Assembly (NCBI GenBank): GCA_013001045.1 | Contig: JABDNG010000021.1 | Coordinates: 1 to 35,801 of the forward strand | Direction: 5' to 3' | From: Woeseiaceae bacterium | GTDB taxonomy: Bacteria > Pseudomonadota > Gammaproteobacteria > Steroidobacterales > Woeseiaceae | DNA: 35,801 bases | In this document: in pieces, positions 20,086-29,374 of the stretch | Numbering within the stretch: the first letter of the stretch is position 1 | Layout: each line of letters begins with the position of its first letter | The notes under the pieces: model-generated | What the model was told of the DNA's origin: nothing | Database searches by the model: none | Seen by the model: the letters and a program-made list of their open reading frames with translations, nothing else | Position numbers and translations under genes: made by a program

Positions 20086-22563
20086 CTACGCGTCGCGCTT
20101 AGGGCGTTCTTCGTATCGGAACTTCAAGTTGCCAACGGAAATAATGTCGCCGTTTGACAAAACACATTCCTTGATGCGCTCGGAATTTACGAAGACCCCG
20201 TTCTTGCTTCCCCAGTCGATGATTCGCGTTGATTCTTCTTCCGTTACTACGACGGCGTGGCGTCGACTGATAAAACTCACGTTCAGCTGAATGTCGTTCT
20301 CGGCGGTTCGGCCAATCGTCAATCTATTCTTGAACAACGGAAAGCGCAGCACCTGGTCCCCAACGTTACCGATAAGAACGCGCGTGACCCGATCATGATC
20401 GCGATGATTCTGCTTGTCATCGGCCTGCCGAACGGCACCGTTGTCCGGTTCGTCGATTCGTTCCGACATCCGGTCGTCGATTTCCTGGATAACGTTTTCG
20501 ATTTCGCCGATCGACTCGAGCTGCTCTGTCTTTTTTGTCAACTCGTCAAGCAACACGTTGATCGCGGTGTTCTTGGTGTCGAGTTTTGACGCGTATTTTT
20601 TCGCCGCGCTGGACATCTCACTTAAGCGATCTTCCAGTTCTTTGATGCGCGTCCGCGACTCCTCTTGTTTCTCGACAAGCATGCCCTCGAGTTCTTCCTT
20701 GAAGCTGCGCGTGTCCAAAAGTTCCGATGTAAGTTGCAGATTAAGGTCGCCAACCTGTGTTGCGGTGCTTTGAGCATCACCGAGTTCGAATCGCAATGTA
20801 CGAAGTTCCTGCTCGTGGTCGCTCTGCTGCTGCTCAAGAGCATCTTCGAGCTTCTTGATCGACCTGGCTGCGCGATCGACCTCCTCGGATAGCCTGTCGT
20901 TGTGCTCGGTGACCTGTTCCAGGGTGGCGTTCAATCCATCGCGGTCGTTCGATAATTGAGTTTGAGACTCCATGAGGTCCTGCAGTTTGAATCTCAGTGT
21001 ATCCGCGTTCTGTTCAACCCGTCGAATTTCGTCCTGCGCGGTCCTGTCAATGGCGCTGTTCGTTTCCCGCGTCCGTTGGATTTCGGCTGCGCTCTTCTTC
21101 CGCGTGGCTTCGAGTTCGGAGCGCAGGCGTTCGAGGTTAGATTCGGCGTCTTCGAGCGCGGCGACATTCTGTGCATCCGTTGTGCGCTGCGAAGCAAGCT
21201 GCTGCTCAAGTTCTGTGTGTTGTTCCGTCAGCAATTCATGAGCATGATCGCGCTGCGCGATATCCGCTTCAAGTGACGCTACCTTATTTCGCGCCTCATC
21301 GAATGCGGAACGCAATTCCTCTAATTCATGACCGCTCTCTTGAAGGGCAGCGGAAGCATGTGAGCCTGCTGCGGACTGGTCAGCGAGTTGTTGCTCGAGT
21401 TCTGCACGCTCCTGCTCGAAATCAGACTTCAGCGACGCCATTTCATTCTGCGCAGATTCCAGCTTGGACTGTAATTCCTCCAGTTCACGCCCGTTCTTTT
21501 CAAGTGCGGCGACATTCTTGTCATTAGCGGCACGTTGCTCGGAAAGTTGTTGTTCAAGTTCCGAGTTCTGCTGCTCGAGATCAGACTTCAGCGACGCCAT
21601 TTCATTCTGCGCAGATTCGAGCTCGGACTTTAACTCCTCCAGCTCACCTGCGTTCTTTTCGAGTGCGGCGACATTCTTGTCGTCAGCGGCACGTTGCTCG
21701 GAAAGTTGTTGTTCAAGATCCGAGGTCTGCTGCTCGAACTCAGATTTCAGCGAAGCCAGTTGATTCTGCGCAGATTCGAGCTCGGACTGTAATTCCTCCA
21801 GCTCACGTGCGTTCTTTTCGAGTGCGGCGACATTTTTGTCGTCCGTTTCACGTTGCTCGGCAAGTTGTTGTTCAAGACCCGAGTTCTGCTGCTCGAACTC
21901 AGACTTCAGGAAGACTATTCCATCCTGGGCAGCTGCGAGCTCTTTCTGGGCGATTTCGAGATCATCCTGGGCAGCTGCGAGTTCATTCTGGGTAGCTGCG
22001 ATGTTGGCGTGCAGTTCTTCCAACTCGCGCGCGCTTTCCTCAAGTGCAGCGACGTTTTCCACGTTGGCTTCACGTTGCTCTGCTATTTGTTTTTCGAGAT
22101 CAGAATATTGGTCTTCGGAAGACGCGTGAGATTCCTGGAATTGCTCGAGTTCCGACTTGAGAGACGCAATTTCCTTATTGCGTTTCTTAACGAGTTTGTC
22201 TTTACGAGCACACTTGTCCTTAAGGTCGTCAATTTCACCGTTTAAACGGTTGACGATCTCCTCGCGCGCGGTGATTTCTGTTTCCAGTCCAAGCCACTTG
22301 GTGCGCAACTGCTCGATATCGAACTGCAGGCGACCGATTGTCTTGCCGCGCCTTTCCAGATCGGATCTCAGTTCCGGAACGGACTTGTCGGCAGCGGATG
22401 CATCGGCCTCGTCGGTGCCGAAGCCGTAGGTATTTGAGTCAGATTCCGGCTCGACGTCTGCGTCGCCAAGCCGGGCTTGCCGAAAAGTCGGAATCTCGAG
22501 CTCTGCCGTGATGTCATCATCTTCCGCAACTAAGTCATTTATCTTTTTGTTTTCATTAGTCAT
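20086..22563 (-). CDS. Long coiled-coil protein with C-terminal FHA domain
   Basis: 825 residues, no signal peptide, cytosolic. Residues 1-60 are acidic and probably disordered. About 65-690 is an almost continuous coiled coil (Glu/Gln/Leu/Ala-rich). A forkhead-associated domain fills about 725-820, with the key residues visible: Gly-Arg in LTIGRTAENDI, Ser-Arg-Arg-His in FISRRHAVVV, and the Asn-Gly of WGSKNGVFVNS. FHA domains bind phosphothreonine peptides, so this may be a rod-shaped scaffold that reads protein phosphorylation. Residues 219-430 are four tandem repeats of 53 residues, with diverged copies on either side. It is the third gene of a run with a metallopeptidase lipoprotein and a Ycf46-like AAA ATPase; 76 bp separate it from the ATPase. 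No Ser/Thr kinase is adjacent. I know of no named family with this arrangement. Confidence 0.9.
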   Translation of the reverse strand: MTNENKKINDLVAEDDDITAELEIPTFRQARLGDADVEPESDSNTYGFGTDEADASAADKSVPELRSDLERRGKTIGRLQFDIEQLRTKWLGLETEITAREEIVNRLNGEIDDLKDKCARKDKLVKKRNKEIASLKSELEQFQESHASSEDQYSDLEKQIAEQREANVENVAALEESARELEELHANIAATQNELAAAQDDLEIAQKELAAAQDGIVFLKSEFEQQNSGLEQQLAEQRETDDKNVAALEKNARELEELQSELESAQNQLASLKSEFEQQTSDLEQQLSEQRAADDKNVAALEKNAGELEELKSELESAQNEMASLKSDLEQQNSELEQQLSEQRAANDKNVAALEKNGRELEELQSKLESAQNEMASLKSDFEQERAELEQQLADQSAAGSHASAALQESGHELEELRSAFDEARNKVASLEADIAQRDHAHELLTEQHTELEQQLASQRTTDAQNVAALEDAESNLERLRSELEATRKKSAAEIQRTRETNSAIDRTAQDEIRRVEQNADTLRFKLQDLMESQTQLSNDRDGLNATLEQVTEHNDRLSEEVDRAARSIKKLEDALEQQQSDHEQELRTLRFELGDAQSTATQVGDLNLQLTSELLDTRSFKEELEGMLVEKQEESRTRIKELEDRLSEMSSAAKKYASKLDTKNTAINVLLDELTKKTEQLESIGEIENVIQEIDDRMSERIDEPDNGAVRQADDKQNHRDHDRVTRVLIGNVGDQVLRFPLFKNRLTIGRTAENDIQLNVSFISRRHAVVVTEEESTRIIDWGSKNGVFVNSERIKECVLSNGDIISVGNLKFRYEERPKRDA
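21274..21909 (-). repeat. Four tandem 159-bp (53-codon) coding repeats
   Basis: The DNA repeats with a period of exactly 159 bp, for example TTCATTCTGCGCAGATTC at 21442, again from 21601, and with one change from 21760. Protein units run 219-271, 272-324, 325-377 and 378-430, with a consensus starting LKSEFEQQ and containing LEQQLSEQR, KNVAALEKN, ELEELQSELESAQN. The three upstream units are near-identical in DNA as well as protein, while the fourth and the flanking half-copies (about 135-218 and 431-490) have diverged. The array probably grew and shrank by recombination, and can mislead short-read assembly. Confidence 0.9.
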
Positions 22564-22639: not shown

Positions 22640-24130
22640 CTAATCGCACGGCACGGTGCGTCCAGCCGCCCAGTCCCGCAACGTCGAGATTCTCTCGTGC
22701 ATGACGACCGATAATGGACGCGTCTGGCCGACCTCCTGCAGAATATGCTGCGTAGCCAGCGGCTGGTTCTTGGCATGCGCCGCATAGAGGGCCGAAACAA
22801 TGGCTTGTTCCACCTCGGCGCCGGAAAAGCCCTCCATTGCCGCCGCCAGCCCTTCGATGTCAAATTCTGCCAGCGGCTGTTGCCGATTCGTAAGATGTAT
22901 CGCCAGAATCGACGCGCGAATTTTCGCATTCGGCAGGTCGACGAAAAAGATCTCGTCGAATCGGCCCTTGCGAACCAGTTCCGGCGGTAGCGTGCTGATG
23001 TCGTTTGCGGTCGCGACTATGAAAACCTGGCTCTTGCGTTCCGCCATCCAGGTCAGGAAAGTCCCGAGCACTCGCTGCGTTGTTCCTGTTTCTCCACCGC
23101 GACCGGCAATACCTTTTTCGATTTCATCGATCCAGAGGACGCAGGGTGACATGACATCGGCGGTTTTCAGTGACTCGCGCAGCTTGCGTTCAGTCTCGCC
23201 GTGGTACTTGTCGTATATTGCGCCGAAGTCGAGGCGCAACAGTGGTACACCGAAAACACCCGCTGTCGCCTTGGCCGCAAGGCTCTTGCCGCAACCTTGA
23301 ACACCGAGCAGGAGAATGCCTTTTGGTGCGTCAAGGTGCGATGCGGATTCTTCGCGCCGGAAGGCTGGCCGGCGCTGTGTCAGCCAAGTCTTGAGTCGTG
23401 CGAGCCCACCGACATCGTTGAATCGCGCGGTGTCGTATTCAAACTGCAGTGCGCCACCTCGGTTAAGCAACTCGTACTTCGCCTGCATCACGCCAGGCAG
23501 GTCGCTTTTCGAGATAGCGCCGTCGACGTATATAGCATTGCGCGCCAGCCGTTCGGTATCCGCATACGATAGTCCGGCGAGGTTATGAATCAACAGGCTG
23601 TGGGCCTTCCGATCAACCTGCACGAGACTGCCCGGATGGTCCTTTCCATACGCATTGACGGCGCGTTTTACAATGCGCGAACGTTCCTGCTCCGAGGGCA
23701 AGTTCATATCAAAGCGGGCGCAATAAGACTCAAGTTCGCTGGGAATCCTGATCTCGTGACTGAGCAGGACGATTTGACGCCGCACATTCCGATGCTGGAT
23801 ACAGATGTCTTTTATCAGGCGAACGTGGACCGGATCCTCAATGAACGGATGAAAGTCGAGCAAGACGTAAATGCCGGGCTTCGAAACCGCCCGGATATGT
23901 TTTAGAACGTCGGTTGGCGCCGAATTCAGTGCTTGTGGCTCCAGCGAGATGTCGATGCGTTGCAGACCGTCGGTAATCGTCCAGCGAAACAGCGGCGTAT
24001 ATGTTTCCGACGCACTCTGGATAGCCATGGACTGCAACAGCTCCAACATGCGGGCTTCATCCTGGGTTTCGATGACAACGATCGGGGTGCGTGATCGCAT
24101 AATCAATTCGAGGTCGCGACTTCCATCCAT
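22640..24130 (-). CDS. Ycf46-like AAA+ ATPase
   Basis: 496 residues. An N-terminal domain (about 1-225) specific to the Ycf46 family is followed by one AAA+ module: Walker A GVQGCGKS (276-283), Walker B VLWIDEIE (331-338), sensor 1 ATAND (373-377) and the arginine-finger region RKGRFDE (387-393). The pore-loop region has DKYHGETERKL. The module resembles FtsH/katanin-type AAA domains, so substrate remodelling is likely, but the family, named from an algal plastid gene, has no firm biochemical role known to me. It begins 9 bp after the metallopeptidase stop codon, in the same reading frame, and lacks a Shine-Dalgarno, so it probably depends on translation of that gene. Confidence 0.93.
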   Translation of the reverse strand: MDGSRDLELIMRSRTPIVVIETQDEARMLELLQSMAIQSASETYTPLFRWTITDGLQRIDISLEPQALNSAPTDVLKHIRAVSKPGIYVLLDFHPFIEDPVHVRLIKDICIQHRNVRRQIVLLSHEIRIPSELESYCARFDMNLPSEQERSRIVKRAVNAYGKDHPGSLVQVDRKAHSLLIHNLAGLSYADTERLARNAIYVDGAISKSDLPGVMQAKYELLNRGGALQFEYDTARFNDVGGLARLKTWLTQRRPAFRREESASHLDAPKGILLLGVQGCGKSLAAKATAGVFGVPLLRLDFGAIYDKYHGETERKLRESLKTADVMSPCVLWIDEIEKGIAGRGGETGTTQRVLGTFLTWMAERKSQVFIVATANDISTLPPELVRKGRFDEIFFVDLPNAKIRASILAIHLTNRQQPLAEFDIEGLAAAMEGFSGAEVEQAIVSALYAAHAKNQPLATQHILQEVGQTRPLSVVMHERISTLRDWAAGRTVPCD

Positions 24131-24139
24131 CGTTTTTTT

Positions 24140-25438
24140 TCAGCTGCTTTCTTCGCCTGGCGCTATTCTAGAGCAGCCAGGCAAGTTGTCGCTGTGAAGT
24201 GCGTCGGAGGGTTGACCGATTATTTTCGTCGCGATATCCCTTAATTCCGCGACACCAATTGCGCTCTCGGATGCGATGACTTGCCGAAACAAATCGTCCA
24301 GGTTGTTCGCCCCGCCGGTCTTTTCCTCAATTTCCTTGTTCAAAGCATGCAACACAGTGACCGCCAGCGCGGTATTTGCGCCAGTCGAGTTTGGACCGCA
24401 GAGGAAACTGGCTTTGCCGGCCCATTCCGCTTGTTGGGACACGGCGACTTGGTACCGTCGGGCCGAGATCGCGCCGCCTCGTTCGAGTAACGAAATGCTG
24501 TAAAACTCCGCCAGGCCTTCAACAATCCAGTCGGCACCGGGCCGGGATTTGATTGACGCAGCGGAATGAACGACCTCGTGTAACAGAGTGCTGGTCGCGT
24601 TCTCGCTGATTAATGGCCGGTCAGCATGAATATACAGGGAGGACGGCGCAGACAGGCCGCCACGCCACATCGGATCCCCGGCGCTCACGATGGTGAGCCG
24701 CGTAGGCGGGTCCGGCAGTAATGCAACCAACTCCGGCAACGTCCAGTTCAGTAGCGCGAGCATGTCCATGCGCCGCACGGCGTGTCCCATTGGCCCGGCG
24801 ACGGCCACCCTGACGCCGGCAATCGTTTCTCGTCGCACGCCGACGCCGCCAACCAGCATCCAACCGGTCGGCTGATCGAAGCGTCGGTCGGCGCGATGGA
24901 TGCGAATTGGATCATCGGTGCCCGCGTACTCGGTGACAACGGACCATGATCGCGGCAAGACAAAGGACAGCGTTGTATTCGAGGTGGCGCCCTTGAGCGT
25001 GCGAGTCCTTGCGCGTGGAATGATGTCTTCAGCGCGAAACATACCCCAATCAGGACCAAGCCAGGCATCGTAGCTTTTGTTGCCTCGTCGGTGAGCGACG
25101 TGTGCGCGCCAGCGCAACGTGCCGCCACCGGCCGGGGGCAACCACTGCAACTTGCCGTCACCGATCAATACATCGCCATCACCGCTGAAATCTCCCAGGG
25201 TGTCGGGAAGCGATGAAAAAGTCATTTCGCGCAAAAACTGTCGCGGTTGGCGAATTTCCAATTCCACGTCTACTGCAGACTGCCCCGGGTCGACCGTTAC
25301 CCGGTAGTGGGCATCATAGGTACGCTCGATCGGGCTGTCGGCCGACTCAGAAAGTTCTACGCCGCATGCGACGATTACAGCGAGCGAAAGCAGGGCAGCG
25401 GAAAAGGCCCGGATTCGCAGTCCTGAGAGGCAGTTCAT
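24140..25438 (-). CDS. Putative zinc metallopeptidase lipoprotein (peptidase MA-like gluzincin)
   Basis: 432 residues. Lipoprotein signal with lipobox IVAC and Cys25. Residues about 40-190 look like an all-beta N-terminal domain. The zinc motif HEVVH occurs in STLLHEVVHSAAS, with the likely third ligand Glu in DWIVEGLAEFYS, 15 residues after the second His. This W-x-x-E-G-x-A pattern is typical of the peptidase MA superfamily (related to M1 and M61); the spacing is shorter than in M1. So the catalytic parts are present, but substrate is unknown. It should act in the periplasm, tethered to a membrane. It heads the run with the AAA ATPase and the FHA protein, and is divergent from the NlpC/P60 gene with 58 bp between the starts. 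Confidence 0.82.
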   Translation of the reverse strand: MNCLSGLRIRAFSAALLSLAVIVACGVELSESADSPIERTYDAHYRVTVDPGQSAVDVELEIRQPRQFLREMTFSSLPDTLGDFSGDGDVLIGDGKLQWLPPAGGGTLRWRAHVAHRRGNKSYDAWLGPDWGMFRAEDIIPRARTRTLKGATSNTTLSFVLPRSWSVVTEYAGTDDPIRIHRADRRFDQPTGWMLVGGVGVRRETIAGVRVAVAGPMGHAVRRMDMLALLNWTLPELVALLPDPPTRLTIVSAGDPMWRGGLSAPSSLYIHADRPLISENATSTLLHEVVHSAASIKSRPGADWIVEGLAEFYSISLLERGGAISARRYQVAVSQQAEWAGKASFLCGPNSTGANTALAVTVLHALNKEIEEKTGGANNLDDLFRQVIASESAIGVAELRDIATKIIGQPSDALHSDNLPGCSRIAPGEESS

Positions 25439-25496
25439 ATCGGATTAAGGCTCCATACCGTATGCTGGAACGATCTTGCGGGTCAGAGAGAACCAG

Positions 25497-26000
25497 ATGA
25501 TAGCGCAGCCAGCTCGCATTATTCGGAGTTTTGCCTTAGCAATCACCATGTTGGGGCTGGCGTCCGCGTGTTCATCAACGGCTGTATCGTGGGACGCCGC
25601 CACGCCCCGGGTCGGCATGGATTCAGGGGCGCCCGCCGTGGGCGCCCGAGCCGCCGCGATCGCGGTGGATCAGGTTGGCGTTCCGTATCGTTACGGCGGC
25701 AGCACGCCAGGCGGATTCGATTGCAGTGGTCTGGTGCAATACTCGTATTCGCAGGCGGGCAAGCGAGTACCAAGAACCACTGGCCAACTGTGGTCCTCGA
25801 CCATCGCCGTCCAGCCCAATGAAATGCGCGTTGGCGATGTGTTGTTTTTCAAAGTCGGTGGAAAAATGTCGCACGTTGGATTGTACCTGGGCAGGCAACG
25901 CTTCGTGCATGCACCGTCATCCGGCCGCAGAGTTGCAGTCGCGTCGCTGGATTCGCCGTTCTACAAGTCGGCATTCATGCGGGCAGGGCGGCCACAATGA
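25497..26000 (+). CDS. NlpC/P60 family cell-wall peptidase lipoprotein
   Basis: 167 residues from the ATG at 25497 (AGAGAG upstream); a TTG seven codons earlier is less likely. Lipobox LASAC with Cys25. The NlpC/P60 domain fills about 52-165 with catalytic Cys76 in GGFDCSG, His126 in MSHVGLYLG and a third polar residue, His138, in RFVHAPSSG. By family it should cut peptide stems of peptidoglycan (Spr/MepS and NlpC are E. coli relatives). All three residues are intact. It is divergent from the metallopeptidase lipoprotein and convergent with the next lipoprotein gene, 22 bp away. Confidence 0.93.
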   Translation: MIAQPARIIRSFALAITMLGLASACSSTAVSWDAATPRVGMDSGAPAVGARAAAIAVDQVGVPYRYGGSTPGGFDCSGLVQYSYSQAGKRVPRTTGQLWSSTIAVQPNEMRVGDVLFFKVGGKMSHVGLYLGRQRFVHAPSSGRRVAVASLDSPFYKSAFMRAGRPQ

Positions 26001-26022
26001 CCATGCGAGGAAGTCGCGCTGT

Positions 26023-26700
26023 CTATTGAATGATGAAAGCCCTGAGCTGTTGTGCGAGACCCTTGCACGCGGCCGCCTGCGTTCTCGCGATCAGCGGGAT
26101 GGGCACGACAAGAGCCGGAAGAAATGAAGTGCCGCTCACGTCGGCCGTTACCGTGCCGGCAGATTCGTAGCCCTCCAGATCCCAGACGGCCGCTTCGTAA
26201 TCCGCATCCTTTTGCCACCAGGCAAATCCGAAACACCCGCCACCACCCGGCCCCGCAGCGCAAGACAGGCTGCCGCCCTGAGCCACGGTTTCGGTGTCAC
26301 CATCCAGCCACACGATGTAGCGAACGCCCAGGTCGTTCACGATTTTCGAAACACCCGGCCGTTCCATCAGCTTCGTGAGCCCTTTCGTTTCGGCCGGCGC
26401 CGTGCGCGGTTCGAACCACGGGAACAGGGAGTCCACAAACTGTTGCCTGGGAATGACCCGCAAACCTTGCGAGCCGCGTCCGAGCGCGTCCTCTATGCAG
26501 GTGATGTATTTGGACTCGGTCGCGTTACCTTGGTGATAGCTTTTCGCCATAATGACGACAGAGTCGCCTGCGTTGAGTCCTGTTACGTTTTCACGGGCAT
26601 CTTCAACTCGAGAGGTAACACAGCCCGCGAGGCACACGGTGAGCAGTCCGAAAAGCGGAACAGCCTTGACCGGCACCATAGATTTATTCTGCCTCATCAT
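26023..26700 (-). CDS. Lipoprotein of unknown function (second gene of a two-lipoprotein operon)
   Basis: 225 residues from ATG at 26700, chosen because GGAGGA lies at 26705-26710, five bases upstream; the next codon is also ATG, and a third at 26679 is possible. Lipobox CLAGC. The mature protein starts with a CsgG/TolB-N-like alternation (DSVVIMAKS, then VIPRQQFVDSLFPWFEPRTAP, then LGVRYIVWLDGD). It has a Cys/Gly-rich hairpin (CAAGPGGGGCFGFAWW) and ends SFLPALVVPIPLIARTQAAACKGLA. The two cysteines of the hairpin may form a disulfide. Function unknown. The start lies 17 bases inside the upstream lipoprotein gene, so translation is coupled. Confidence 0.85.
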   Translation of the reverse strand: MMRQNKSMVPVKAVPLFGLLTVCLAGCVTSRVEDARENVTGLNAGDSVVIMAKSYHQGNATESKYITCIEDALGRGSQGLRVIPRQQFVDSLFPWFEPRTAPAETKGLTKLMERPGVSKIVNDLGVRYIVWLDGDTETVAQGGSLSCAAGPGGGGCFGFAWWQKDADYEAAVWDLEGYESAGTVTADVSGTSFLPALVVPIPLIARTQAAACKGLAQQLRAFIIQ

Positions 26701-27409
26701 CGATTCCTCCGATGGCAAAAACGCCGAAGTCCTCTTCCTCGTCGTCCGGCACCTGGTTGGAGCTCGTATCGGCGGCCACCTTCACGGGTCGACTCGTCGG
26801 CGGCGCGAGCCCGCCACCTGCCAGGCTACTGATATTTGTCGCCTTGTCCATTTGCATGATAATCAAGGCCGCGGCATCGCGCATTGCCAGTACGGCCGCC
26901 CGTTGCAGGGAGTCAGAACCGCCGATGCCTTGTTTCTGGCTCTTGCCGTAAGCGCTGACGGTCCAGTTGGACGCATTGTTGCCTTCCCGGTCGAAAATTC
27001 TGAGCCGGTACCGTATCCAGACCGCGAATGCCTCCGTCTTGCTCTGATTGGGTACCGAGAATTCGAAGCCGTCAATACTGGGTTCGATCAATGCATCGAA
27101 AGCAAAATTTCGAGCATCATCATCCGGGCCAATCACCGTCACTCCGTCAAATAGATAACCGAATAGCTGCTCAAAAAAAGTCGCATTCGAATTACCGAGG
27201 TGAATGGTCCAGGATTCTTTGCCGAGCACGTTTTCTTCGTGCACGAAGTCTTTGAATTCCTCCGGGATGCGGAGCGCAACGTTGATCGGTATTTTCTCGA
27301 TGCGTGGCGCCGGGATCGTTGGCTCGATCATCGTTACGTTCGAGCCACAGCCTGCAAGCGCCAGGAGCAGTAAGCTGACTGAGAGTGTGGAACGAGTCTT
27401 GGCTATCAA
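26684..27409 (-). CDS. Lipoprotein of unknown function (first gene of a two-lipoprotein operon)
   Basis: The frame is open to 27538, but a lipoprotein signal (TRSTLSVSLLLLALAGC) starts well inside it. The best fit is a TTG at 27409 giving 241 residues with lipidated Cys21; an ATG at 27487 would place a 26-residue extension before the signal. The mature part starts with a Pro-rich linker, then a domain with IPINVALRIPEEFKD, FFEQLFGYLFDGVTVI and FAFDALIEPSIDGFEF, loosely like the periplasmic strand-helix fold of YajG or ABC-transport auxiliary lipoproteins. It ends in a Pro/Thr-rich and acidic tail. Family not recognised. It overlaps the following lipoprotein gene by 17 bp. Confidence 0.8.
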   Translation of the reverse strand: MIAKTRSTLSVSLLLLALAGCGSNVTMIEPTIPAPRIEKIPINVALRIPEEFKDFVHEENVLGKESWTIHLGNSNATFFEQLFGYLFDGVTVIGPDDDARNFAFDALIEPSIDGFEFSVPNQSKTEAFAVWIRYRLRIFDREGNNASNWTVSAYGKSQKQGIGGSDSLQRAAVLAMRDAAALIIMQMDKATNISSLAGGGLAPPTSRPVKVAADTSSNQVPDDEEEDFGVFAIGGIDDEAE

Positions 27410-27509
27410 GGGCTTGCAGTCCGCACGGCTAGTAAAATCAGGGTTGGTATATGAGAGCACTTCTGTGTCATAGAGTTCCACCGAATTCATACGAACCCGG
27501 TCTAGGTCC

Positions 27510-27538
27510 ACTCTAGTGCGGGCGTATCGGCAGTGCAA
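27510..27538 (-). promoter_or_regulatory. Candidate promoter of the two-lipoprotein operon
   Basis: On the minus strand TTGCAC (27533-27538) and TAGAGT (27510-27515) are 17 bp apart. The -35 box matches three and the -10 box four of six positions. It would start RNA near 27503, just before the ATG at 27487 and about 95 nt before the TTG at 27409, so it does not settle the start. Confidence 0.3.
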
Positions 27539-28375: not shown

Positions 28376-29374
28376 TCAGAAATCCCGCCATTCCAGAGGC
28401 GGTTCCTGCATCAACGCAACCTGCTCACGCAGCGCAAGTACATGATCGTCCCAGTACCGGCGACTGTCGAACCAGGGGAAGGCCGATTTGAACGCCGGAT
28501 CTTCCCAGCGCCGCGCGAGCCACGCGGCATAGTGCATGATGCGAAGGCTGCGCAACGCTTCTACCAGGTGCAGCTCTCTGGCATCGAACGGTCGAAAGGA
28601 CTGATAGCCCTCCAGCAATGCCGTAAGTTGCGGTGTTTGTTCGTCCCGGTCGCCTGACAGGAACATCCAGAGATCCTGCACCGCGGGCCCATGGCGGGCG
28701 TCGTCCAGGTCGACGATATGCAATTGATCGCGGGCCACAAGCACATTTCCGGGGTGAAAATCGCCGTGCAGTCGTATTTCCCGGACATGGCCGGCACGTT
28801 CAAAGCACGTCTCCACGCCCTCGAGCACCAGCTCCGCGACACTTTCATACGCTTCGCGGTTGTCGTCCGGAATAAAGTCGTTGTCGACGAGGTACTCGAG
28901 CGATTCGACGCCGTAGGAGTCGATATCAATGCTCGGACGATGTTCGAAGCGACGCGTCTGCCCCTCGAGATGAATGCGTGCGACCAGCCGACCAAGTTGA
29001 GCCTGCAGGTCGTAGTTGTCCAGATCCGGCGCGCGTCCGCCGCGGCACGTATAGACGGCAAGCCGGTAGTGGCCGCTGTGATGCAGGGTTTTTCCGCCAA
29101 GAAGCAAGGGCGGAACTACGGGAATTTCCTGGTCGGCGAGGGCAATGGCGAACTCATGCTCTTCGAGTATGGCATCGTCACTCCAGCGCTGCGGCCGGTA
29201 GAACTTCGCCACAACCGGAGAGGCGTTCTCGATACCCACCTGGTAAACCCGGTTTTCATAACTGTTGAGCGCGAGGAAACGACCGTCACACTCGAAACCG
29301 ACGTCGTCCAGGGTCGCGAGTATGTCATCGGGCTGCAGATCAGCGAACGCAAGCGCGGCCGCATCGCCGGTCAT
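28376..29374 (-). CDS. srkA: Stress response kinase A (SrkA/YihE)
   Basis: 332 residues (E. coli 328). SrkA is a eukaryotic-like Ser/Thr protein kinase of the aminoglycoside-phosphotransferase fold that protects from stress-induced death in E. coli. Visible parts: N-lobe Lys57 in VVAKFYRP, the catalytic loop LHGDFHPGNVL (Asp205, Asn210) and the metal-binding DLDDA (Asp222, Asp224). The last four bases of typA and the first of srkA overlap (ATGA at 29371-29374), so the kinase is translated with TypA. This is the only protein kinase gene in the window; the FHA protein lies about 6 kb away. Confidence 0.95.
   Translation of the reverse strand: MTGDAAALAFADLQPDDILATLDDVGFECDGRFLALNSYENRVYQVGIENASPVVAKFYRPQRWSDDAILEEHEFAIALADQEIPVVPPLLLGGKTLHHSGHYRLAVYTCRGGRAPDLDNYDLQAQLGRLVARIHLEGQTRRFEHRPSIDIDSYGVESLEYLVDNDFIPDDNREAYESVAELVLEGVETCFERAGHVREIRLHGDFHPGNVLVARDQLHIVDLDDARHGPAVQDLWMFLSGDRDEQTPQLTALLEGYQSFRPFDARELHLVEALRSLRIMHYAAWLARRWEDPAFKSAFPWFDSRRYWDDHVLALREQVALMQEPPLEWRDF

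Follow-up and report, generated by a model that had tools for sequence, protein, structure and literature searches.

We analysed a 35,801-nucleotide stretch of DNA from a Woeseiaceae bacterium (assembly GCA_013001045.1, contig JABDNG010000021.1, positions 1 to 35,801), called the window in the following. On its minus strand lies a gene whose 825-amino-acid (aa) product was found by open reading frame (ORF) call, Pfam search and AlphaFold2 (AF2) prediction to consist of a disordered N-terminal tail, a long coiled coil and a C-terminal FHA domain. The original prediction had pointed to recent tandem copies of a 53-residue unit in the coiled coil and had supposed that each copy inserts a stutter into a rod that could work like a molecular ruler. 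Comparison with sister species points to a repeat unit of nine heptads that was shortened by ten residues and then multiplied in the shortened form. The gene and its repeat region comprise the following features:

20086..22563, minus strand: FHA-coiled-coil gene with an 825-aa product (ORF call, translation, Pfam, AF2)
21913..22164, minus strand: first repeat unit, residues 134-217, 84 aa = 63 + 21 (unit alignment; heptad register c)
21921..22001, minus strand: 21-base-pair (bp), 7-residue tandem array (Tandem Repeats Finder (TRF), period 21, 3.9 copies)
21754..21912, minus strand: 53-aa unit 1, residues 218-270 (TRF, copy comparison, unit alignment)
21595..21753, minus strand: 53-aa unit 2, residues 271-323 (TRF, copy comparison, unit alignment)
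21436..21594, minus strand: 53-aa unit 3, residues 324-376 (TRF, copy comparison, unit alignment)
21277..21435, minus strand: 53-aa unit 4, residues 377-429, diverged (copy comparison, unit alignment; AF2 break at 396-415)
21088..21276, minus strand: last repeat unit, residues 430-492, which keeps the ancestral 63-aa (nine-heptad) length (unit alignment; heptad register c)
20131..20319, minus strand: FHA domain, residues 749-811 (Pfam envelope, E 1.1e-17)

The four tandem copies of 159 bp were confirmed. TRF placed a period of 159 bp with 3.3 copies and 88% matches at 21412-21942, and the four in-frame copies correspond to residues 218-429 (21277-21912, minus strand). The coordinates given originally, 21274-21909, describe the same 636 bp displaced by 3 bases. 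At an offset of 53, up to 30 of 35 residues are identical, whereas 20 shuffles with unchanged heptad composition gave 13 at most. The array is broader than first reported, with a related 84-residue unit before and a 63-residue unit after the 53-aa copies. The 21-bp tandem array overlaps the 21 extra residues of the 84-aa unit and is their likely source.

With frames starting at residues 220/273/326/379, DNA identity among copies 1-3 is 0.906, 0.868 and 0.899, whereas the fourth copy reaches 0.597-0.623 compared to these three. Synonymous divergence (dS), estimated by the Nei-Gojobori method (NG86) in the frame from residue 220, is 0.18, 0.32 and 0.24 among copies 1-3, with a nonsynonymous divergence (dN) of 0.08, 0.10 and 0.08; for the fourth copy against the first three, dS ranges from 2.5 to saturated. 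In the frame from residue 204, which includes part of the preceding 84-aa unit, dS is 0.24-0.42 among copies 1-3 and 0.99-1.5 for the fourth. The same measure was taken for the conserved upstream neighbour:

22640..24130, minus strand: AAA ATPase gene, 496 aa (Pfam AAA, E 1.3e-29)

This gene shows a dS of 1.7 to saturation in comparison with six sister loci (NG86). Since dS among copies 1-3 is far below these values, the expansion to three copies appears to postdate the splits from the six sisters; gene conversion among the copies could also have lowered dS. A recent expansion, as claimed originally for the array, is thus seen for copies 1-3 but not for the fourth copy. As the diverged fourth copy already has 53 residues, the 53-residue form is older than the three-copy expansion.

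For the origin of this form, 21 units from seven species were aligned, with cut points chosen by hand at a shared SLK-like motif. All comparisons are between species, with one genome (G number) per species. Four sisters carry 13 decayed unit copies of 63 or 56 residues (9 or 8 heptads), in the order 63, 56, 56 in G009, G023 and G095 and 56, 56, 56, 63 in G024; G009 was assigned to the sisters on the basis of identity and shared units. Seven residues are missing from the 56-residue units, with two sites at which the gap occurs. In the window, one unit of 84 residues (63 + 21) is followed by four of 53 and one of 63. A 10-residue segment is missing from just the four internal window units, giving 53. 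G093 and G034, with one copy each, have this segment, as do orthologs without the repeat, so the ten residues were lost in the window lineage. In the four sisters and the outer units of the window, differences in unit length are heptad multiples (-7 at two sites, +21).

At the level of sequence comparison, the alignment shows that the ancestral repeat unit had 63 residues, or nine heptads, and that the loss of 10 residues keeps the reading frame open and shifts the predicted heptad phase by +4, equivalent to a stutter. It likewise shows that the 53-residue form was duplicated at an earlier time and then again recently, making the window protein the longest of 57 genus orthologs. We regard this repeat history as well supported. 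A pure hendecad or 53-residue ancestral repeat was rejected, as the sister units have 63 or 56 residues; the original description of 53 as six heptads plus one hendecad holds as arithmetic but not as history. TRF found no DNA-level array with a period above 100 bp in the other 58 orthologs scanned (56 from the genus plus G037 and G052; the scan reached two loci among 17 further order-level orthologs). Arrays as a usual feature of the family were rejected on this basis.

The heptad register agrees with this history. When an unbroken heptad was forced, all 15 units of 56, 63 or 84 residues (13 from sisters, 2 from the window) began at position c, and all four 53-residue units began at position f. 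The common heptad start of the 15 non-53 units argues against a rod with mostly 11-residue core periodicity, as in Scy/FilP-type hendecad rods. The heptad propensity table was of the MTK type, and register scores are approximate. The anchor-to-anchor distance is 328, 328, 328 and 384 in the four sisters, all 6 mod 7, and 512 in the window, which is 1 mod 7, as expected from four deletions of ten residues.

Each 53-residue unit thus carries a net phase shift of +4, and the array would have 15 core turns per 53 residues, or 3.53 residues per turn. In a periodic model with three copies, the best single break scored 24.45 at unit residue 36, compared to a null of 300 permuted units with a mean of 13.0 (standard deviation 2.8, maximum 23.3). 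With four copies, residue 36 scored 21.81 and residues 5-7, near the deletion junction, scored 20.6-21.05. A two-break model (+1 and +3) scored higher, at 30.2; the permutation null belongs to the single-break score and none to the two-break score. In a free register model, net shifts were called in the 53-residue units at penalties of 3-6; fewer were called at 7, and penalties of 9 or 12 gave none. The repeat regions of the sisters showed, at penalty 6, no breaks in G009, cancelling pairs in G095 and G024, and one break at the edge in G023. One strictly localised stutter was rejected, since a site around residue 36, the junction and the two-break model compete. The expectation of a single stutter in each unit holds for the net phase but not for a fixed site, and in the register prediction, which had been suggested originally as a check, the breaks depend on the penalty.

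Length varies between relatives; the original prediction had proposed that it could vary between strains. The constant copy number that was named there as a refutation is not seen. The family set holds 77 proteins, 76 of them full length. Among 57 full-length genus orthologs, length ranges from 356 to 825 aa with a median of 488; 35 of the 57 fall within 473-504 aa, four form a group at 369-377 aa, and the five longest have 638, 638, 639, 696 and 825 aa, the last being the window protein. In a tree of the AAA protein, which lacks support values and holds 64 of 71 loci, four of the five longest species cluster with G093 (529 aa) and G034 (521 aa). The fifth, G009, is missing from the tree, which leaves out both G009 pieces, G007, G033, G070, G074 and G049, all with AAA matches that are short or remote. 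Proteins reduced to 356-377 aa were seen at loci L091 (G065), L094, L096, L062 and L056; in G065, most of the N-terminal rod and the tail Thr site are missing and the FHA core is kept. In G001 (L068), the FHA gene is a 58-aa fragment and the AAA gene has two in-frame stops, so the gene pair looks decayed there. In another genus, the 840-aa FHA protein of G196 (L112) carries a rod duplication with a period of 70 residues (ten heptads; 25 of 35 identical compared to a null of 13), whose sequence, by reading, is unrelated to the window unit.

A match to the AAA gene at E <= 1e-80 was obtained in 66 of 73 genus genomes. Of 71 loci (the window included; four from three other families), 60 carry the FHA-coiled-coil gene, counting the 58-aa fragment of G001, and 11 do not. 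Among these 11, G085 and G073 show the gene start at the contig end, others end within or soon after the AAA gene, and G049 has a remote AAA match only. In G032, G071 and G079, the contig runs on to downstream genes with the FHA gene absent, and the C-terminal 204 residues have no close match elsewhere. At order level, a same-strand FHA gene (E < 1e-3) was found at 19 of 42 loci (40 new, 2 repeated) and not at 23.

Support for a long coiled coil, also claimed originally, comes from Pfam and AF2. Outside the FHA domain, which a Yop-YscD_cpl match overlaps, Pfam matches were limited to helical or coiled-coil-rich families (ATG16, Fez1, Filament, AAA_13). AF2 was run on the monomer with an alignment of 20 orthologs. 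It predicted helices at residues 62-224, 240-395 and 416-689 and FHA strands from 726 after a linker, whereas residues 1-61 form a disordered tail with a predicted local distance difference test score (pLDDT) below 50. Since confidence was low overall, just the broad layout was taken from this model. If fully helical, the rod of about 628 residues would be about 93 nm long at the helical rise of 0.1485 nm per residue. The protein is probably cytoplasmic, as suggested by its FHA domain and AAA partner; the N-terminus is acidic and hydrophilic, and no export signal is visible by reading of the sequence.

The two ends of the protein are conserved. In addition to the FHA domain, two Thr sites were identified in the tail:

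22495..22521, minus strand: acidic Thr motif DDDITAELE, residues 15-23, with Thr19 as candidate phosphothreonine for the FHA domain (ortholog conservation)
22420..22446, minus strand: second tail Thr, Thr45, residues 40-48 (conservation of 90% or more across 20 aligned orthologs)

The FHA core pattern (GR, SxxH and NG, which we take to be the canonical phosphothreonine contacts) is present in all 76 full-length orthologs; it is a looser replacement for a first pattern that was too tight. In the tail, D17, T19 and L22 are invariant across 20 aligned orthologs. A regular expression for an acidic Thr-x-x-[LVIF] site within the first 36 residues matched 72 of 76 orthologs, compared to a mean of 21 and a maximum of 36 in 200 shuffles, which ignore relatedness; the expression was widened twice after the sequences had been viewed (53/60, then 64/76, then 72/76). 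The first match is another Thr in several orthologs, and that of G218 is not the homologous site. By reading, 71 of 76 orthologs retain the homologous Thr site (such as DDDPTAEL), and it persists across other families of the order in the forms DDDPTDEL and DEDTDQL. The best solved relatives of the FHA domain include GarA, DgcB (6HBZ/6HC0/6HC1, identified by accession) and OdhI; Rv1747 and EmbR also match. Hanks-type kinases (PF00069) gave 10 matches at E <= 1e-10 in the window genome and at least one in all 73 genus genomes.

The conserved Thr-x-x-hydrophobic site resembles the tails by which GarA, OdhI, DgcB and TIFA bind their own FHA domains. GarA and OdhI have the same FHA sequence type and a conserved Thr in a disordered N-terminal tail, and neither is known to have a rod. 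In the window protein, a rod of variable length intervenes and tail-FHA binding is putative, whereas the tail of GarA and OdhI binds its own FHA domain, and GarA, OdhI and TIFA are named as self-interacting FHA proteins, within one molecule or as a fibre, in PMC6733907. In the bacterial DgcB of Bdellovibrio, whose structures are among the best matches, the FHA domain also recognises its own phosphorylated N-terminal tail; there, however, it is N-terminal and regulates a GGDEF enzyme (PMC6733907). TIFA likewise combines a tail Thr and an FHA domain in one protein, and binding of phosphorylated Thr9 to FHA between dimers is described in PMC7083832; this head-to-tail oligomer is comparable to the intermolecular assembly of dimers that we propose for the window protein. 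In contrast, TIFA comes from animals, is small and lacks a long coiled coil, and the relation we claim is to its FHA domain only.

For the rod, Periscope Proteins are comparable in having mutually similar tandem repeats that change in number, but are surface-attached according to PMC9704523; the 825-aa protein has no visible export signal, and here the variation is between species. A stutter or hendecads also occur in the long coiled coils of the bacterial proteins crescentin, FilP and Scy, for which the excerpts of PMC10873595 and PMC9858780 do not mention FHA. The same excerpts describe the FilP rod as hendecad-expanded and Scy as nearly all hendecads, whereas the ancestral unit found here fits heptads. 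Removal of the stutter from crescentin is reported to have hampered cell curving (PMC10873595). The hendecad discussion in PMC9858780 speaks for less left-handed supercoiling when periodicity goes up from 3.5 towards 3.63.

The AAA domain is closest to VCP/CDC48-type modules among solved structures; the label 'Ycf46-like' is a putative one based on sequence features and was given by none of the searches. At 70 loci besides the window, many of them cut by contig ends, the neighbours are the HExxH-like gene (62), orf26684 (61), orf26023 (61), the FHA gene (61), orf18762 (56), orf19312 (55), a DUF1232 gene (54) and an S41 protease gene (54). In the window, the conserved cluster at 22640-27538 consists of the AAA ATPase gene, the HExxH lipoprotein-like gene and the lipoprotein-like orf26684 and orf26023. 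AAA, orf26684 and orf26023 extend to other families of the order, which retain them together with, in part, FHA. For the two lipoprotein-like neighbours, neither Pfam nor NCBIfam gave an above-threshold name. A gene for an SrkA/YihE-like kinase (28379-29374; NCBIfam PRK11768, E 4e-140) lies near AAA in 54 of 70 loci and may be linked to the FHA protein. Within a small lipoprotein-like gene that encodes a SnoaL-like domain, a further heptad-sized tandem repeat (21 bp, 7 residues) lies at 392-437. Literature searches on Ycf46-type AAA, on FHA with coiled coil and AAA, and on FHA in Woeseia found no paper on the FHA-coiled-coil/AAA pair, and searches on heptad-multiple indels gave no result.

We propose, at close to even chances, that the protein is a tether or chain-former that depends on phosphorylation, with a reach that evolves mostly through duplications of heptad size. 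The rod would separate the disordered tail, with its acidic Thr-x-x-Leu site, from the C-terminal FHA domain, and the Thr of the tail would be phosphorylated by a Hanks-type kinase. If the dimer is parallel, the tail would be unable to reach its own FHA domain across the rod and would bind that of another molecule, or a partner. The outcome would be a phospho-switchable tether or a head-to-tail chain, in which repeat number would tune the reach without setting an exact distance. As a rod of tens of nanometres would keep tail and FHA domain apart, mutual binding, if it occurs, would be easiest between molecules. The phosphorylation, the binding, the dimerisation and the role of length are what we infer here. 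A narrower form, in which dimeric rods are joined by tail phosphothreonine-FHA contacts into a head-to-tail polymer or tether, length is largely heptad-quantised and the window lineage escaped via the 10-residue deletion, we consider unlikely.

Several observations count against the proposed tether or chain. The AF2 monomer is poor (mean pLDDT 67, predicted template modelling score 0.22) and comes without a docked tail, and its helix is interrupted at 225-239 and 396-415; these low-confidence breaks are located in the first and fourth 53-residue units and may be hinges or artefacts of monomer prediction. Placement of the stutter is ambiguous, and the unit comparison rests on few independent indel events. 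Among the 35 of 76 orthologs with both anchors matched, anchor distances fall into six classes mod 7 (0:7, 1:2, 3:1, 4:8, 5:5, 6:12), with G093 at 5 and G034 at 1, both members of the same clade. A genus-wide heptad rule was rejected because of this spread; heptad multiples are therefore valid for the repeat units, not for every rod indel. G065, G070, G185, G218 and G287 lack the homologous Thr site and retain the FHA core, so the tail may not be the sole ligand of the FHA domain. G032, G071, G079 and G132 have the AAA gene but no FHA gene, and the same is seen at 19 of the 23 FHA-negative order-level loci, those with more than 3.5 kb downstream, G132 among them; a very diverged FHA gene could have escaped detection at order level.

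The molecular ruler of the original prediction, in which repeat number fixes an exact end-to-end distance and strains differ adaptively, is consistent with length changes by whole units in the sister group of the window and with a rod that is predicted to be mostly helical. However, length is not conserved, with 356-825 aa within one genus, where one group of 35 of 57 orthologs lies at 473-504 aa and another of four at 369-377 aa. In addition, the comparison covers species, not strains, and we know of no partner structure of a size that matches the rod. Conserved ends on a spacer of variable length favour a tether with drifting or tunable reach over a set-point ruler, which we consider very unlikely. 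The wide length variation fits neutral slippage, where heptad-rich coding DNA duplicates readily, selection asks just for an open, helical product and length has no function. The spread of anchor distances mod 7, the 21-bp array within the first repeat unit, the unrelated 70-aa-period duplication in G196 and the absence of the FHA gene with kept flanks in three genus genomes point the same way. On the other hand, the units of the sister group differ in length by whole heptads or in a way compatible with a stutter, dN (0.08, 0.10, 0.08) is lower than dS (0.18, 0.32, 0.24) among the three recent copies, and 35 of the 57 orthologs cluster at 473-504 aa. We regard neutral slippage as somewhat improbable.

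Another possibility is an intramolecular switch of the GarA/OdhI type, with the rod folding back at hinges so that the tail binds the FHA domain of the same chain or dimer. Close solved relatives use such a switch (PMC6733907), and the two low-confidence AF2 breaks could be the hinges. But most of the rod is predicted to be helical, phase breaks in the repeat regions of the sisters cancel or are absent at penalty 6 except for the one at the G023 edge, and the fold-back would have to work for proteins of 356 to 825 aa, all of which makes this switch quite unlikely in our opinion. An intermediate-filament-like scaffold of the crescentin/FilP type, in which coiled coils pack laterally and the FHA domain recruits clients, would agree with the long rod, the disordered head, the net stutters and a Pfam Filament match (E 1.2e-5, below its cut-off). 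Generic coiled-coil matches are, however, expected for sequences of such kind, and rod length is not conserved, unlike the expectation for a fixed lateral stagger; such a scaffold seems most unlikely to us.

In the narrower head-to-tail polymer form, amplification of the stutter unit would reduce left-handed supercoiling along the array and might make this part of the rod softer or straighter. Living relatives in this gene family illustrate how a rod of coiled coils can lengthen, by whole-heptad units in the sister species, with one stutter-compatible exception. The family provides a natural length series, 356 to 825 aa, in which the ends are conserved, and makes it directly testable how spacer length affects an FHA interaction that depends on phosphorylation.

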